Positions 7,274 to 14,908 of a stretch of 64,000 bases of DNA are shown here, one piece after another (the stretch's first letter is position 1; the number at the start of each line of letters is the position of its first letter). The stretch spans positions 1-64,000 of the forward strand of contig NZ_JPMX01000006.1 of the NCBI RefSeq assembly GCF_000761485.1. The letters run 5' to 3'. Below the pieces are notes generated by a model. That model made no database searches. It had not been told where the DNA came from and saw only the letters and a list, made by a program, of their open reading frames with translations. The DNA is from Modestobacter caceresii. Its GTDB lineage: Bacteria; Actinomycetota; Actinomycetes; Mycobacteriales; Geodermatophilaceae. The position numbers and the translations under genes are program-made.

Positions 7274-8768
7274 CCGCTACGTGCTGGCCGTCGACCAGGG
7301 GACGACGTCGACGCGGTCGCTGGTGTTCGACCGGGGCGGCCGGATGGTCGCCGTCCGCCAGCGCGAGCACCACCAGTACTTCCCCCGCCCCGGCTGGGTC
7401 GAGCACGACCCGATGGAGATCTGGGCGAACACCCAGCGGACCGCCGCGCAGGTGCTCGGCGACATGCCCGACGCCGGGGACGTCGTGGCACTGGGCATCG
7501 CCAACCAGCGGGAGACCACCGTGGTCTGGGACCGGGTCACCGGCCGGCCGGTGACCCGGGCGCTGGTCTGGCAGGACACCCGCACCGCCGACCTGGTGAC
7601 GGAGCTGGCCGCCCGGCCCGACGCCGGCCTGGTGGCCGAGCGCAGCGGGATGGCGATCGCCGGCTACTTCTCCGGCCCGCGGTTGCGCTGGATCCTCGAC
7701 CACGTGCCCCGCGCCCGGGAGCGCGCCGAACGCGGCGAGCTGCTGTTCGGCACCATGGAGACCTGGCTGATCTGGAACCTCACCGGCGGGCCGGACGGCG
7801 GCGTCCACGTCACCGACGTGACGAACGCGAGCCGCACCCTGCTGATGGACGTGCGCAGCTGCCGGTGGGACCCCGACCTGCTCGCCTTCTTCGACATCCC
7901 GGCGGAGATGCTGCCGGAGATCCGCCCGTCGGTCGGCGTCCTGGGCACGGCCACCGCGCTGAACCGGGCGCTGCCGATCGCCGGGGCACTGGGCGACCAG
8001 CAGGCGGCGCTGTTCGGCCAGGCCTGCTTCGCCCCCGGCGAGGCCAAGTGCACCTACGGCACGGGCAGCTTCCTGCTGCAGAACACCGGCACCGAACTGG
8101 TGCGCACCCGCTCCGGGTCGATCAGCACGGTGGCCTACCAGCTGGCCGGGGAGCCGGTCCGGTACGCGCTGGAGGGTTCGGTCGCCGTCGCCGGTGCACT
8201 GGTGCAGTGGCTGCGGGACGGGCTGGGCCTCATCAGCTCGGCCGCGGAGGTGGAGACCCTCGCCCGCACGGTCGGCGACAACGGCGGCTGCTACGTCGTC
8301 CCGGCGTTCTCCGGGCTGCTGGCCCCGCACTGGCGGGGGGAGGCCCGCGGCCTGGTCGCCGGGCTCACCTCCTACGTCACCAAGGGGCACCTGGCCCGCG
8401 CGGTGCTGGAGGCCACCGGCTGGCAGACCCGTGACGTGGTGCAGGCGATGGCCGCCGACTCCGGCCTGTCGTTGCCGGCCCTGCGGGTGGACGGCGGGAT
8501 GACCACCAACAACCTGCTCATGCAGTTCGTGGCCGACGCGCTGGACACCCCGGTCGTGCGGCCGATGGTGGGGGAGACGGTCTCCCTCGGGGCCGCCTAC
8601 GCCGCCGGCCTGGCCGTCGGGGTGTGGTCCGACGTCGAGGCGCTGCGCCGGAACTGGCACCGGTCGGCGCAGTGGACGCCGACGCCGGAGCGGGCGCGGG
8701 CACTGACCGCGGAGTACCCCCGCTGGGAGCGGGCGGTGGAGCTGAGCATCGCCTGGGGAGCCCCCTGA
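7266..8768 (+). CDS. glpK: glycerol kinase (copy 1)
   Basis: 500 residues, FGGY kinase family. [13 protein letters not shown] (phosphate 1 loop), PGWVEHDPMEIW, ANQRETTVVWDR, GDQQAALFGQACF and VDGGMTTNNLLMQ are standard GlpK motifs, so the protein should phosphorylate glycerol in the cytosol. The GTG start lies inside the end of the regulator gene. A second, closely similar kinase begins at 9726; this copy differs in having more Arg and Ala replacements and a shorter insert after the QDTRTADLVTEL segment. Which copy is the main enzyme cannot be told from sequence. Confidence 0.93.
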   Translation: MADRYVLAVDQGTTSTRSLVFDRGGRMVAVRQREHHQYFPRPGWVEHDPMEIWANTQRTAAQVLGDMPDAGDVVALGIANQRETTVVWDRVTGRPVTRALVWQDTRTADLVTELAARPDAGLVAERSGMAIAGYFSGPRLRWILDHVPRARERAERGELLFGTMETWLIWNLTGGPDGGVHVTDVTNASRTLLMDVRSCRWDPDLLAFFDIPAEMLPEIRPSVGVLGTATALNRALPIAGALGDQQAALFGQACFAPGEAKCTYGTGSFLLQNTGTELVRTRSGSISTVAYQLAGEPVRYALEGSVAVAGALVQWLRDGLGLISSAAEVETLARTVGDNGGCYVVPAFSGLLAPHWRGEARGLVAGLTSYVTKGHLARAVLEATGWQTRDVVQAMAADSGLSLPALRVDGGMTTNNLLMQFVADALDTPVVRPMVGETVSLGAAYAAGLAVGVWSDVEALRRNWHRSAQWTPTPERARALTAEYPRWERAVELSIAWGAP

Positions 8769-9725: not shown

Positions 9726-11243
9726 ATGGCCCAGTACGTAGCAGCGATCGACCAGGGCACCACCAGCACCCGGTGCATGATCTTCGACCACGACGGCGCC
9801 GTCGTGTCCGTCGGCCAGAAGGAGCACGAGCAGATCTTCCCGCGCGCCGGGTGGGTAGAGCACGACGCGATGGAGATCTGGCGCAACACCCGCGAGGTGG
9901 TCGGCCAGGCGCTGGCCCGCAGCGACGCCGGCACCTCCGACATCGTCGCCGTCGGGATCACCAACCAGCGGGAGACCGCGGTGGTCTGGGACCGGAGCAC
10001 CGGCGAGCCGGTCTACAACGCGATCGTCTGGCAGGACACCCGCACCACGAAGATCATCGAGGAGCTCGGCGCGCTGGGCGGCGGCGCCGACCGCTACAAG
10101 GACAAGGTCGGCCTGCCGCTGGCCACCTACTTCGCCGGCCCCAAGGTCCGCTGGATCCTGGACAACGTCGACGGCGCCCGGGAGCGCGCCGAGCGCGGCG
10201 AGCTGCTGATGGGCACCATCGACTCCTGGCTGATCTGGAACATGACCGGCGGCGCGGACGGCGGGCTGCACCTCACCGACGTCTCCAACGCCTCCCGCAC
10301 CATGCTGATGGACTACCGGAAGCTCGCCTGGGACGCCGACATCGCCGAGGAGATGGGCATCCCGATGTCCATGCTCCCGGAGATCCGCTCCAACTCCGAG
10401 GAGTACGGCAAGGGCCGCAAGGCCGGCTTCCTGGCCGGGGTGCCGATCGCCGGTTCCCTCGGCGACCAGCAGGCGGCGACGTTCGGCCAGGTCTGCTTCA
10501 CCAAGGGCATGGCCAAGAACACCTACGGCACCGGCAACTTCATGCTGCTCAACACCGGCGAGGAGGCCGTCCCGTCGCAGAACGGGCTGCTCACCACGCT
10601 GTGCTACCAGCTGGGGGACGCCAAGCCGGTGTACGCACTCGAGGGCTCGATCGCGGTCACCGGCTCGCTGGTGCAGTGGGTCCGGGACAACCTGGGGATG
10701 ATCTCGAGCGCCCCCGAGATCGAGGACCTGGCCCGCTCGGTCGACGACAACGGCGGCTCCTACTTCGTCCCGGCGTTCTCCGGCCTGTTCGCCCCGCACT
10801 GGCGTTCTGACGCCCGCGGCGCCGTCGTCGGGCTCACCCGGTTCGTCAACAAGGGGCACCTGGCCCGCGCCGTCCTGGAGGCGACCGCGTACCAGACCCG
10901 TGAGGTGCTGGACGCGATGAACGCCGACTCCGGGGTCGACCTCACCGAGCTCCGCGTGGACGGCGGGATGGTCGGCAACGAGCTGCTCATGCAGTTCCAG
11001 GCCGACCTGCTCGGCGTCCCGGTGATCCGGCCGAAGATCGCCGAGACGACGGCGCTGGGCGCGGCCTACGCGGCCGGCCTCGCCGTCGGCTTCTGGTCCG
11101 ACCTCGACGAGCTCACCGCCAAGTGGGCCGAGGACAAGCGCTGGGACCCGCAGATGGCCACCGACGAGCGGGAGCGGTTCTACCGCAACTGGCAGAAGGC
11201 GGTCACGAAGTCGCTGGACTGGGTGGACGAGGACGTCAGCTGA
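9726..11243 (+). CDS. glpK: glycerol kinase (copy 2)
   Basis: 505 residues starting at ATG 9726 with a strong AGGAGG ribosome site. All GlpK motifs are present ([67 protein letters not shown]). It is in the classic glpF-glpK order and its sequence is nearer to the usual actinobacterial GlpK (more Lys, [30 protein letters not shown]). It is probably the main kinase, and copy 1 the regulator-linked paralogue; that ranking is inference. Confidence 0.95.
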
Positions 11244-11262
11244 CGCCTCCTCGTCGCGCACT

Positions 11263-11296
11263 GCAGGCCCGTCGGAGTCCCCTCCGGCGGGCCTGC
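11263..11296 (+). terminator. terminator of glpF-glpK2
   Basis: GCAGGCCCGTCGGAG (11263-11277) and CTCCGGCGGGCCTGC (11282-11296) pair at 14 of 15 positions around a TCCC loop, 20 bases after the glpK stop. Confidence 0.75.
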
Positions 11297-11330
11297 CGTG
11301 CGTCCGGGCCCACCCAGCCGGGTGACTAGC

Positions 11331-11363
11331 TTGTGCGCCTGACTAGGCAGTCGTACTGTCTAG
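11331..11363 (+). promoter_or_regulatory. promoter and overlapping palindromic operator of the PadR gene
   Basis: TTGTGC at 11331-11336 and TACTGT at 11354-11359 are spaced 17 bases, a good -35/-10 pair. The -10 box lies in the palindrome CTAGGCAGT-CGT-ACTGTCTAG (11343-11363, eight of nine arm positions paired). The predicted start of transcription falls at or next to the GTG at 11367, so the mRNA should be leaderless and the PadR protein probably represses itself. Confidence 0.65.
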
Positions 11364-11366
11364 CGC

Positions 11367-11720
11367 GTGTCAGCAGAACGGTGGCCCGGGGAGTGGATGC
11401 GCGGCGTCCTGTCGTTGTGCGTGCTCCGCGTCGTCGCCGACGGCCCGACCTACGGCTACGCCATCGCCGCCCGGCTCGCCGAGGCCGGGCTCGGCCCGGT
11501 GAAGGGCGGCACGCTCTACCCGATCCTGGCCCGCCTGGAGACCGAGGGCCTGGTGTCCTCGTCGTGGGAGGCCGGCGACGGGGGCCCGGGCCGCAAGTTC
11601 TTCACCCTCACCGACGCCGGCGAGCAGTTCCTCCGCGAGCGGACCGAGCTCTGGCACGTCTTCACCGAGCGGGCCGCCGGCCTGCTGGCCCCCCTGCCCG
11701 CTGCGAGGAGCACGCCATGA
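11367..11720 (+). CDS. PadR family transcriptional regulator
   Basis: 117 residues. VLSLCVLRVVADGPTYGYAIAARL and KGGTLYPILARLETEGLVSS are the PadR winged-helix signature. No ribosome site precedes the GTG at 11367; the promoter geometry suggests leaderless translation. Its TGA overlaps the next ATG by four bases (ATGA), coupling it to the membrane protein. PadR genes paired with a small HAAS-type membrane protein are a known regulator-sensor arrangement. Confidence 0.9.
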   Translation: MSAERWPGEWMRGVLSLCVLRVVADGPTYGYAIAARLAEAGLGPVKGGTLYPILARLETEGLVSSSWEAGDGGPGRKFFTLTDAGEQFLRERTELWHVFTERAAGLLAPLPAARSTP

Positions 11721-12268
11721 AGAGCACCGACCAGGCCTGGAGCGACGACCTGCTGCTGGCGCTGCGGTTGCGCGAGGTCCCGGGCACCCGGATCGGCGAG
11801 GTCCTCGCCGAGGTGCAGAGCCACGTGGCCGAGACCGGGGAGGACCCGCGCCAGGCGTTCGGCGACCCGAAGCAGTACGCCGACGAGGTGGCCGAGGCGC
11901 TCGGTCTGCAGCGGGGCCGCGGCTGGCGCCACCTGCTCAGCGGCCTGTCGTGGGCGCACCTCGTCGTCACCGTGGTCATCGGCGTCGCCAGCTTCCTGCT
12001 CGCCGACAGCCTGTGGGGGCTCGGCGCGGGGGACGACGCGGCCTTCGGCGTCCCGTCCGGGCTGATGGCGGCCGGCGCCGTCGTCGTCCTGGCCGGCTGC
12101 GCCGCCTGGATCGCCGCCGCGACCCGCCGGGAGCCGGACGACACCGTGCGCGACCCGCGCACCGGCGAGGACATGGCCCGCCTCGGGCGATGGCAGCTCG
12201 CCGTCCTGATCGGCGCCCCGGTGCTGGCCCTGACCCTAATGCTCCTCGGCGGCCTCCTCACCCGCTGA
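11717..12268 (+). CDS. HAAS-domain-like membrane protein, PadR partner
   Basis: 183 residues. The first 70 or so are soluble and helical (LLLALRLREVPGTRIGEVLAEV, then DPRQAFGDPKQYADEVAEAL), resembling the HAAS/DUF1700 signalling domain found next to PadR regulators. Three membrane helices follow (about residues 78-98, 114-134 and 158-178). It may sequester or signal to the PadR protein; that is inferred from the pairing. The gene ends 19 bases before a palindrome core at 12288-12311. Confidence 0.75.
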   Translation: MKSTDQAWSDDLLLALRLREVPGTRIGEVLAEVQSHVAETGEDPRQAFGDPKQYADEVAEALGLQRGRGWRHLLSGLSWAHLVVTVVIGVASFLLADSLWGLGAGDDAAFGVPSGLMAAGAVVVLAGCAAWIAAATRREPDDTVRDPRTGEDMARLGRWQLAVLIGAPVLALTLMLLGGLLTR

Positions 12269-12287
12269 CAGCGCCGTCCTCCCCTCA

Positions 12288-12311
12288 CCACCAGAATGGC
12301 CATTTTGGTGG
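12288..12311. repeat. AT-core palindrome, left copy
   Basis: A 24-base inverted repeat with arms CCACCAGAATGG / CCATTTTGGTGG, one mismatch. It equals the core of the palindrome at 13234-13257 except for one base. Its low-GC centre (AATGGCCATT) is unlike the surroundings. It follows the HAAS gene and could act as a terminator. Confidence 0.7.
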
Positions 12312-12369
12312 GTCAGGCGCCTGTGGACGGCGACAGCGGGGACGACCTCACACCCGGCACTCTCTGCCG

Positions 12370-13233
12370 GTGCCTCGCGACCGTCACCTCACCGGAGTGT
12401 TCATCGGCAGCCACGCCATCGCCGAGGGCCGACTGACCCGCGAGCGGCTGCGTTCCCTCGGGTACCGGCGACTGGTCCAGGGCGTCTACGCAGATCCCGC
12501 GCTGGACGTCGACCACCGACTCCGCGCGTGCGGCGTCGCACTGCTCCTCCCGGCGGGCACCGCCATCGGCGGGCACTCCGCAGCCGCGTGGCACGGTGCC
12601 CCGTTCGCCGGCGTGCATGAGGCGGTGACCGTCGTCCGGCCGGCCGAGGTGGAGTGGAAAGGCCCACGGCAGGTGCGGGTGCACCGCACCGACCTGGCCA
12701 CGACGGACGTCGAGCTGGTGGACCACGTCCCCGTCACGACCGCACTGCGGACTGCGTGGGACGTCGCTGCACTGGAGCCGCTCGGCACAGCCGTGGCCGC
12801 CCTGGACGCGATGGTCCGGGCCGGGTCGGTCCGCCTTCCCCAGCTCGAGCACCTGGCCGAGCGTGGGACCGGACGTTGGGGCGTGGCGAAGGTCCGCCGG
12901 GCGTTCGGCCTGGTGGATCCACGGGCCGAGTCGGCGCCGGAGTCGAGGGTGCGGGTGGCGCTGGTGCTCGCCGGGCTGGCGCCGGTGCCGCAGTTCCACG
13001 TGCAACACCACGGCGAGTTCCTGGCCAAGGTCGACTTCGCCTGGCCGGAGGCGAAGCTCATCGTGGAGTACGAGGGAGCGCATCACTTCGAGGCGGAGCA
13101 GATCGTGGCGGACGACCAGCGCTACGCCGTCCTGGTCGCGGCAGGCTGGCGGGTCATCCGGCTGAGCGCTCCGGACCTGCGCGACCTGGACTCCGTCGTC
13201 CGCCGGGTCCGCGACGCCCTGGCGGGCTGCTGA
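12370..13233 (+). CDS. DUF559 (Vsr-like) protein with AbiEi-type N-terminal helix-turn-helix
   Basis: About 287 residues from GTG at 12370 (GTG at 12397 is the alternative; neither has a good ribosome site). The N-terminal part (AIAEGRLTRERLRSLGYRRLVQGVYAD) resembles the winged helix of AbiEi-type antitoxins. The C-terminal part (FLAKVDFAWPEAKLIVEYEG, then DDQRYAVLVAAGWRVIRL) is the DUF559 fold of the PD-(D/E)XK nuclease group, with the Asp and Glu positions intact. Such genes are commonly scattered and orphaned in actinobacteria; no toxin partner is visible. Palindrome copies lie on both sides. Confidence 0.75.
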   Translation: MPRDRHLTGVFIGSHAIAEGRLTRERLRSLGYRRLVQGVYADPALDVDHRLRACGVALLLPAGTAIGGHSAAAWHGAPFAGVHEAVTVVRPAEVEWKGPRQVRVHRTDLATTDVELVDHVPVTTALRTAWDVAALEPLGTAVAALDAMVRAGSVRLPQLEHLAERGTGRWGVAKVRRAFGLVDPRAESAPESRVRVALVLAGLAPVPQFHVQHHGEFLAKVDFAWPEAKLIVEYEGAHHFEAEQIVADDQRYAVLVAAGWRVIRLSAPDLRDLDSVVRRVRDALAGC

Positions 13234-13259
13234 CCACCAAAATGGCCATTTTGGTGGTC
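13232..13259. repeat. 28-bp perfect palindrome, right copy
   Basis: Arms GACCACCAAAATGG and CCATTTTGGTGGTC are exactly complementary with no spacer. It overlaps the stop codon of the DUF559 gene and precedes the end of pgm on the other strand by 14 bases, so it can serve as a two-way terminator. Its 24-base core matches 23 of 24 bases at 12288-12311. Confidence 0.8.
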
Positions 13260-13273
13260 GGCAGCGGGGCGGG

Positions 13274-14908
13274 TCAGGGGGTGAGGGCGGCGGAGACGAC
13301 GGCCTTGGCCTCCTCCTGGACCTGGGCGAGGTGCTCGGGCCCGCGGAAGGACTCGGCGTAGACCTTGTAGACGTCCTCGGTGCCGGACGGGCGGGCGGCG
13401 AACCAGGCGTTCTCCGTGGTGACCTTGAGGCCACCGATCGCGGCGTCGTTGCCCGGGGCCTTCGTGAGCTTGGCGGTGATCGGCTCGCCGGCCAGCTCGG
13501 TGGCGGTGACGGCGTCGGGGGAGAGCTTGCCGAGCGCGGCCTTCTCCTCCCGGGTCGCCGCGGCGTCGACCCGCGCGTAGGCCGACTCGCCGAACCGTTG
13601 CGTCAGTGACGCATGCAGCTCCGAGGGTGAGTTCCCGGTCACGGCCTGGATCTCCGAGGCCAACAGGGCGAGCAGGAGGCCGTCCTTGTCCGTGGTCCAC
13701 ACCCCGCCGTCGCGGCGGAGGAACGACGCCCCGGCCGACTCCTCGCCACCGAACCCGACCGACCCGTCGAGCAGCCCGGGCACGAACCACTTGAAGCCGA
13801 CCGGCACCTCCACCAGCCGGCGCCCCAGCGAGGCGACCACCCGGTCGATCAGGGACGACGACACGAGCGTCTTGCCCACCGCCGTCTCGGCGCCCCAGCC
13901 CTCGCGGTGGCTGAACAGGTAGGAGATCGCCACGGCCAGGAAGTGGTTGGGGTTCATCAGCCCGCCGTCGGGGGTGACGATGCCGTGCCGGTCGGCGTCG
14001 GCGTCGTTGCCGGTGGCGATCTGGAACTCGTCCTTCGCACCGATCAGCGAGGCCATCGCGGACGGCGAGGAGCAGTCCATCCGGATCTTGCCGTCCCAGT
14101 CCAGCGTCATGAACCGCCACGTCGGGTCGACCAGCGGGTTGACCACGGTGAGGTCGAGGCGGTGCCGTTCGGCGATCGCGCCCCAGTAGTCGACGCTCGC
14201 GCCGCCGAGGGGGTCGGCGCCGATCCGCACCCCGGCGGCCCGGACGGCGTCCAGGTCGAGCACGCTCGGCAGGTCGTCGACGTAGGTGCCCAGGAAGTCG
14301 TAGGACTGGGCCGCGGCGCGGGCCCGGGCGAACGGGACGCGGCGCCCCCCGTCCAGGCCGGCGGCCAGCAGCTCGTTGGCCCGCTTGGCGATCCAGCCGG
14401 TGGCGTCGGTGTCGGCCGGGCCGCCCGAGGGCGGGTTGTACTTGAAGCCGCCGTCCCGGGGCGGGTTGTGCGACGGGGTGACGACGATGCCGTCGGCCAG
14501 CCCGGTGGTCTTCCCCCGGTTGGCCCGCAGGATCGCGTGGCTGACCGCCGGGGTGGGCGTGTACCGGTCGGCGGCGTCGACGAGCACGGTGACGTCGTTG
14601 GCGACCAGCACCTCCAGGGCGCTCGCCCAGGCCGGCTCGCTGAGCCCGTGGGTGTCCCGGCCGACGAACAGCGGGCCGTCGTACCCCTGCTGCGCGCGGT
14701 ACTCGCAGATCGCCTGGGTGGTGGCCAGGATGTGCGGCTCGTTGAAGGCGCCGTCCAGCGAGGAGCCCCGGTGCCCGGAGGTGCCGAACGTGACCTGCTG
14801 GGCGACGTCGTCCGGATCCGGCTCGACCGTGTAGTACGCGGTGAGCAGGTGCGGGACGTCGACCAGGTCAGAGGGCTGGGCCGGCTGGCCGGCGCGGTCG
14901 GAGCTCAT
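13274..14908 (-). CDS. pgm: phosphoglucomutase (alpha-D-glucose 1,6-bisphosphate type)
   Basis: 544 residues, equal to the usual bacterial Pgm of about 546. The sequence includes [13 protein letters not shown], the active-site [12 protein letters not shown] with the phosphoserine, the metal loop [10 protein letters not shown], and GFGGEESAG for sugar specificity. It interconverts glucose 1-phosphate and glucose 6-phosphate, linking glycogen and cell-wall sugar synthesis to glycolysis. The start is ATG at 14908; in-frame codons upstream give a low-quality extension. It is divergent from the SNF2 helicase with a 76-base shared region. Confidence 0.95.

Follow-up and report, generated by a model that had tools for sequence, protein, structure and literature searches.

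The window analysed here, a 64,000-nucleotide (64-kb) stretch of Modestobacter caceresii DNA (contig NZ_JPMX01000006.1), carries a DUF559 gene bracketed by two copies of a 24-base palindrome (Table 1). This arrangement, with 23 of 24 bases identical between the two copies and a single gene between them, had been described in the original prediction, and was indeed confirmed at 12288-12311 and 13234-13257. The upstream copy, CCACCAGAATGGCCATTTTGGTGG, is centred 70 nt 5' of the DUF559 start and lies 19 nt past the stop of the membrane-protein-like gene, while the downstream copy forms a perfect 24-nt core, CCACCAAAATGGCCATTTTGGTGG, directly 3' of the DUF559 stop codon. The DUF559 gene is the only one between the palindromes; our own simple gene caller prefers GTG 12397 over 12370 as its start. 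The arm CCACCAAAATGG occurs in the 64 kb, with at most one mismatch allowed, as these four arms only, where 0.01 were expected, and four arms were reached in 0 of 100 shuffles of the window, which rules out a chance palindrome. For the downstream palindrome, RNA folding gave z values of -5.6 on one strand and -5.8 on the other. No terminator-like site (hairpin followed by a T run) was found in 11200-14200, and no Rfam match in 11500-14500. The pgm-type gene, with limits set by our own gene caller, served as context for finding orthologous loci. Elsewhere in the window, the stretches 7278-8644 and 9735-11113, about 2.46 kb apart, are 72-83% alike in register; the latter falls within gene 9726-11243, taken for glycerol kinase (glpK) by sequence, and the window seems to hold two glpK-type genes.

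Table 1. Features of the DUF559 locus in the window, and palindromes of classes A to E found around DUF559 genes.
Feature	Position	Strand	Description
Upstream neighbour	11717-12268	+	Membrane-protein-like gene, preceded by a PadR-type regulator gene
Upstream palindrome	12288-12311	.	CCACCAGAATGGCCATTTTGGTGG, class A with one A-to-G difference
DUF559 gene	12370-13233	+	287 aa, GTG start; Pfam DUF559, E = 3.9e-8
Downstream palindrome	13226-13265 (about)	.	40 nt, extended arms, one mismatched pair
Convergent neighbour	13274-14908	-	Phosphoglucomutase/phosphomannomutase-type gene (pgm); Pfam PGM_PMM domains
Class A palindrome			CCACCAAAATGGCCATTTTGGTGG
Class B palindrome			GGGGCCAAAGTCGCGACTTTGGCCCC
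Class C palindrome			GGGCAGAAATGGCCATTTCTGCCC
Class D palindrome			GGGGCCATGTTGGCCAACATGGCCCC
Class E palindrome			CCCGCTTTCGGCGCCGAAAGCGGG

The DUF559 Protein

The window protein combines an AbiEi-like part, matched by PADLOC AbiEi models over residues 45-189 (E = 2.9e-7), with a Vsr/EDxHD-type nuclease domain at about residues 190-283; weaker PADLOC matches were to DpdF and to a homing endonuclease. When 45 homologs were scanned with Pfam, DUF559 was found in 44 and AbiEi_1 in 6, and none of the five families listed was a transposase family. The profile built from these homologs matches PDB 3r3p, "Mobile intron protein" (E = 8.1e-6), which we take to be I-Bth0305I, as well as 3hrl (E = 8e-4). 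Across the 45 rows, D222, E233 and H239 are invariant, conservation reaches at least 90% for E191 and D248, and the letters of the EDxHD motif may be assigned to E191, D222, E233, H239 and D248. The gene is predicted to encode a homing-type nuclease. No AbiEii toxin gene was seen beside the DUF559 gene, either in the window or in the units mapped. Five viral-contig stretches matched a peptide pattern, and none was confirmed as a relative. An AlphaFold model built from two nearly identical rows reached a mean pLDDT of 36, too low to be of use.

Dispersed Palindromes in Modestobacter

In the genome to which the window belongs, the 18-mer CCAAAATGGCCATTTTGG recurs at 45 places when up to two mismatches are allowed (control, 0), one of which is a copy of the related TCGCGA class, and 48 places fit CCNCCNNNATGGCCATNNNGGNGG (reversed-pattern control, 0). 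The genome-wide search proposed in the original prediction thus yielded about 48 places, most of them not beside a DUF559 gene (Pfam gives 6 DUF559 matches genome-wide). As most copies are solo, an element confined to DUF559 neighbourhoods is ruled out. A dispersed terminator-like repeat had been one of the two readings offered, and the copies are indeed dispersed and mostly placed at 3' ends, but they number about 48, far from hundreds. The exact 24-mer occurs in 30 stretches of the GTDB collection, namely 29 from Modestobacter and one from a Frankiales MAG, and the exact 18-mer in 11 of 23 Modestobacter genomes and in 0 of the 36 other genomes searched.

Base-by-base analysis of 44 superimposed class A copies showed CCACC and ATGG in 43 or 44 of 44 at each base, an invariance partly fixed by the search pattern, of which the outermost three bases are free. 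Three bases between the half-site blocks vary, and both arms do so independently: position 6 forms 24 Watson-Crick pairs, vs. a mean of 24.5 after the arms were re-dealt, and no covariation between arms was detected at core positions 5-7 in these 44 copies. Such independent variation of the arms around invariant half-sites points to the recognition of two half-sites by sequence. Beyond the 24-mer, the sequence varies among copies yet pairs more than chance would give, with a mean extension of 2.9 vs. 1.05 expected (maximum of 2.14 in 1000 re-deals), and these outer arms change together between orthologs, which suggests a hairpin function in RNA or DNA, and that the intergenic copies also work as hairpins.

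Among the 36 class A copies that are intergenic according to our own gene caller and have both neighbours known, 14 lie between convergent, 18 between tandem (32/36 for the two together) and 4 between divergent genes; for comparison, the gaps of the window are 9 convergent, 36 tandem and 10 divergent. The remaining 8 of the 44 copies comprise one without a left neighbour and 7 inside called genes, some near the called gene end; two of the latter, in cobG and chlD, were examined closely. In the tandem copies with a single transition between arms (n = 7, scored by eye), 6 G-U and 1 A-C pairs were counted in the transcribed direction, which suggests a leaning to RNA pairing, in numbers too few for a claim. 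Class B (GGCCAAAGTCGCGACTTTGGCC, at most three mismatches) occupies 23 places, 7 of which start within 45 nt of a class A copy. A DNA-uptake sequence was considered and rejected, as single half-sites (at most one mismatch) are absent from the 64-kb window. A variant palindrome of the same genome, CCCGCGACAGAGATGGCCATTTCTGTCGCGGG (L039:1783-1814), is near class C.

Matched Flanks Around DUF559 Genes

DUF559 homologs in the genus and in the family are bracketed too, but by differing palindromes, of classes A to E (Table 1) and of further classes. This was evaluated with a flank test that makes no use of palindromy, in which the longest match (at most one mismatch, either strand) was sought between the 150 nt upstream and the 150 nt downstream of each gene. 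A match of at least 16 nt was found at 62 of 78 deduplicated DUF559-family loci of Geodermatophilaceae: 28/37 at identities of at least 60% to the window protein, 27/31 at 50-60%, and 7/10 at 30-50%. The loci fetched are part of some 150 listed DUF559 matches, with more in a later list; L110, L111 and L214 are absent from the homolog hit list behind them, and L101, L107 and L162 were left out of the test for their short flanks, L101 having class B on both sides. By this test 16 of the 78 loci gave no match, and two of these (L150 and L169) are flanked by class C upstream and downstream, with a downstream copy that overlaps the stop codon. The controls gave 0/79 for other genes in the same loci and 3/348 for genes of two syntenic stretches, half of the pieces taken from these stretches being used (3/427 in total). 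Two of the three matching controls represent the same gene from two species, and this gene lies between class A or class B palindromes. A simple repeat without a gene link is ruled out by these flank matches, together with the class agreement described below.

Regarding the layout of the units, most loci of the clade to which the window belongs have their upstream palindrome at -54 to -78 relative to the gene start, and our own gene caller placed no gene other than DUF559 in any of the five units mapped. The 68 loci compared, two of which lack one neighbour, represent 27 neighbour pairs, and convergent genes flank 42 of 66 units. Outside the family, matched flanks, mostly of a kind other than the AT-core palindrome, were found at 8 of 20 DUF559 loci picked by hand from the match list (controls, 0/22). 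The original prediction had also considered that gene and palindromes form a small mobile cassette, a reading supported in part by homologs found at differing loci, in several genera, bracketed by matched palindromes. Bracketing was also noted around other genes: the non-DUF559 gene mentioned above lies at L232:11276-12700 in G019 (class A on both sides) and at L254:716-2137 in G014 (class B), and a hydrolase-like gene of G098 (L152:1981-3102) lies between two class C palindromes whose 34-nt arms are nearly identical.

Association of Palindrome Class With the Gene

Of the 78 loci, 38 could be classed on both sides, and both flanks were of the same class in all 38, against a chance mean of 5.4 and a maximum of 15; the class patterns were written after seeing matched flanks, so that this 38/38 is not blind, and the class-free flank test is cleaner. 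Paralogs of one genome differ in class (H, C and F in G074; D, I and E in G007; C2 and E in G018), and the class therefore belongs to the gene, not to the genome. In line with this, classes cluster on the protein tree, with 13 changes over 38 labelled rows vs. a minimum of 22 and a mean of 26 in 500 shuffles. At a single place the unit varies with the species: three A and three C units were found between glpK and pgm (one of each classed on one side), and one A and two B units between the membrane-protein gene and pgm. Gene orientation between pgm and glpK also differs, G009 and G003 being opposed to G005 and G001. The palindrome class thus goes with the individual DUF559 gene and changes on both sides together, a point that the original prediction had missed.

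The dispersed copies were also compared with the bracketed genes. Class C, counted with one 22-mer pattern, has 5-25 copies in all 8 genomes (from four genera) where a class-C-bracketed DUF559 gene was found, the class being present on at least one side and the bracketing copies being counted if they fit the pattern. Among the other 104 genomes, in which only part of the DUF559 genes was looked at, 10 hold any copy (p = 9e-8, kinship being ignored). Two of these, G075 and G098, hold 15 and 17 copies, and no class-C-bracketed gene was found in them among the DUF559 genes looked at. Class A fits less neatly, in that four genomes have 25-32 class A places and bracketed genes of class C (G009, G001) or class B (G014, G019); such off-class A and B copies may be relics of earlier units. 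In G098, a class C palindrome also lies in a called ureF-like gene, near its 3' part (L154:1428-1467).

Empty, Replaced and In-Frame Copies at Orthologous Places

The empty sites that the original prediction had proposed to look for in sister strains were found at orthologous loci of other species: pgm lies directly against the membrane-protein gene in G006 and G007, and adjoins glpK in G011, G008 and G022, with no unit between. Hundreds of copies unrelated to DUF559 genes, together with a lack of empty-site alleles, had been named as the mark of a simple repeat; what was found is some 48 copies and several empty loci, most copies being, all the same, located away from DUF559 genes.

Solo copies were compared between G019 and G014 over 400 kb of the former. 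Three places carry class A in one genome and class B in the other, one place carries B plus A in both, and another an identical B in both; a further place has B plus A vs. B, with a clean block missing, and the flank of one B plus A pair of G019 could not be aligned in G014. In other genomes, a class B block of about 33 bp is absent in G005 and a class A copy is absent in G001, and one orthologous place carries class A in G000 and G001, class B in G019 and, in G014, a palindrome that is C-like. The presence/absence blocks measure about 46 and 33 bp, without evident target-site duplication in these few cases. Many A-to-A pairs were also seen among orthologous A copies, in a list biased by loci mostly chosen for A. 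Differential loss from tandem A plus B pairs can explain some of the intergenic swaps.

Exchange was also observed inside reading frames. Two of the 44 class A copies examined lie in frame, in cobG and in chlD (Mg-chelatase-like), at positions conserved between species. At one codon position of cobG, a palindrome is present in 15 of 21 orthologs and none is recognisable in six; it belongs to class A in G000, G019 and G009 (a variant of A in G002) and to class B in G014, G005, G004 and G020 (decayed in G001), is C-like in G012, and is, in our reading, a decayed D-like palindrome in G017, G007, G011, G006 and G003. No tandem A plus B pair was seen in these 21 orthologs. The chlD linker, compared in 20 orthologs (two partial), carries A, B, D-like and E-like types and, in G002, twice the E palindrome that brackets the second DUF559 gene of this genome. 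Net length in cobG and chlD differs little from that of orthologs without a palindrome, which argues for replacement or decay as much as for clean insertion. The chlD linkers of G013, G008, G003 and G012 (L272, L276, L277, and L280) contain a recurring AAAGGAACCAATACCGG-like or AAAGGAAGCTCT-like motif, which is not a palindrome of the classes described.

Proposed Mechanism and Rival Explanations

In these genomes we observed matched flanks that are specific to the gene and agree in class upstream and downstream, as well as dispersed copies, their turnover and in-frame copies within genes. On balance, we favour slightly the proposal that a DUF559 gene and its cognate palindromes form one unit, in which the nuclease drives the spread or replacement of its own palindrome, and the 0.97-kb segment of the window is, with a chance somewhat better than even, such a palindrome-nuclease unit. 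From a mechanistic point of view, the AbiEi-like part would recognise the cognate palindrome, the nuclease domain would cut at or near palindromic sites, and repair of the break may copy the nuclease's own palindrome, or the whole unit, into the cut place, older palindromes being presumably overwritten by the incoming one. Palindromes of the same, earlier or other units would persist as scattered elements, each about 24-40 bp long, that lie at gene 3' ends or, in some cases, in frame within a gene, and the intergenic ones may then serve the host as hairpins. Binding, cutting and movement by the DUF559 protein are thus proposed from sequence comparison. The original prediction had suggested that such a cassette moves by a non-autonomous route; as the class goes with the individual gene, and the gene encodes a predicted homing-type nuclease, this gene is more likely the driver than the cargo. 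We hold more tentatively, as a possibility that falls a little short of even, that each nuclease recognises its own palindrome and cuts places of other classes, into which repair then writes the palindrome of the nuclease, so that successive lineages overwrite each other, also in coding sequence, across Geodermatophilaceae and perhaps in other Actinobacteria.

Three other explanations were weighed. The palindromes may act as bidirectional transcription terminators or insulators whose cores are specific to the lineage, and a DUF559 gene between convergent genes would then have one at either end. This would account for the stable RNA hairpins, for outer arms that pair beyond chance and differ together between orthologs, for the convergent (14/36) and tandem (18) placement of intergenic copies and for the excess, by eye, of G-U (6) over A-C (1) in the 7 tandem copies scored, but it is at odds with the copies in frame in two genes at places conserved between species, with the different classes around paralogs of one genome, with matched flanks in only 3 of 427 control genes, with core positions 5-7 that do not covary between arms and with the 4 of 36 copies that separate divergent genes. 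A strict terminator is further weakened, in-frame copies aside, by the missing T run in 11200-14200, and we regard this explanation as unlikely. A shade less probable still, in our view, is that the palindromes are operators: the AbiEi-like part would bind them and repress its own gene through the upstream copy, and the scattered copies would form a regulon or act as titration sites. AbiEi antitoxins are known to bind inverted repeats that precede their own operon, and an operator would fit the position of the upstream palindrome (-54 to -78) in most loci of the window's clade, the invariant half-sites and the class that goes with the protein. By contrast, it does not fit the matching copy 3' of the stop codon or the scattered copies, most of which lie at 3' ends of genes and two of which are in frame within a gene, and it leaves class replacement at orthologous places unexplained.

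The copies that occur without a matching gene, and the bracketing of the G098 hydrolase gene and of one other gene (G019, G014), would also agree with REP- or MITE-like palindromes mobilised by some other transposase that escaped notice, with the DUF559 gene as a passenger captured between two copies. The association, however, is with a single protein family, found in at least four genera, in which every homolog has its own class; no other gene was called inside the five units mapped, and no transposase family was matched in the 45 DUF559 homologs, so that we consider a passenger quite improbable. The nuclease-palindrome unit is preferred because it covers gene-specific classes, two-sided replacement and in-frame copies together, while each of these rivals explains parts of them.

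Comparison With Known Systems

The closest organisation is that of REP-RAYT systems (REPtrons, TnpA-REP), in which one gene lies between two cognate palindromes that are also dispersed, RAYT genes being "always flanked by two REPs" (PMC2817692), and in which REP and RAYT coevolve (PMC8266576), so that gene and palindrome class go together, with copies near and inside genes. Unlike the Y1 HUH (IS200/IS605-like) transposase of these systems, the gene described here encodes, in the 45 homologs scanned, a DUF559/EDxHD-type nuclease. The palindromes differ as well: a GTAG head there, CCACC...GGTGG with variable bases outside in class A here; hundreds of copies there, tens in the genomes counted here; and here a perfectly palindromic core, free of bulges and of loop asymmetry. 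Earlier work describes palindromes located within genes, as well as repeats that have no transposase, including CGTC repeats that "apparently lack a dedicated transposase" (PMC3733652). Like these and the Rickettsia palindromic elements (RPE), the palindromes studied here occur in frame in protein genes and have no apparent HUH partner (PMC3733652), but they are shorter (24-40 bp), belong to Actinobacteria, lack a CGTC end in class A and have a candidate partner gene.

Dispersed bacterial palindromes have so far been tied to HUH transposases (REP-RAYT) or left without a known partner. Here, members of a nuclease family whose annotation names no function are paired individually with palindromes of their own, which offers a testable role for DUF559 and a possible engine other than HUH enzymes for small palindromes. 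Short palindromes are also seen to be swapped within the coding sequences of conserved enzymes. No description of such a palindrome-nuclease system was found in the open-access library searched, which lacks most subscription papers, and the unit looks like a tiny form of mobile DNA that is absent from the literature searched.

As for the protein itself, sequence similarity to the AbiEi antitoxin (of a type IV abortive-infection toxin-antitoxin) extends over residues 45-189, while the unit differs in having no second gene, a fused nuclease domain and palindromes on both sides. The Caulobacter protein VsrA, which shares the DUF559 domain with a Vsr-like fold, leads to DNA damage if the methylase is absent, which is functional evidence for such damage in vivo; it differs by a link to cytosine methylation, and "palindrom" occurs 0 times in the text (PMC12907096). 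EDxHD homing endonucleases (I-Bth0305I; PMC3943268) share the nuclease domain, according to profile comparison, and a gene found at differing places and absent from orthologous loci of other species. The genes described here differ from them in lying outside introns, with a whole palindrome on both sides, apparently in place of a split target, and in having an AbiEi-like part in place of the known DNA-binding modules.
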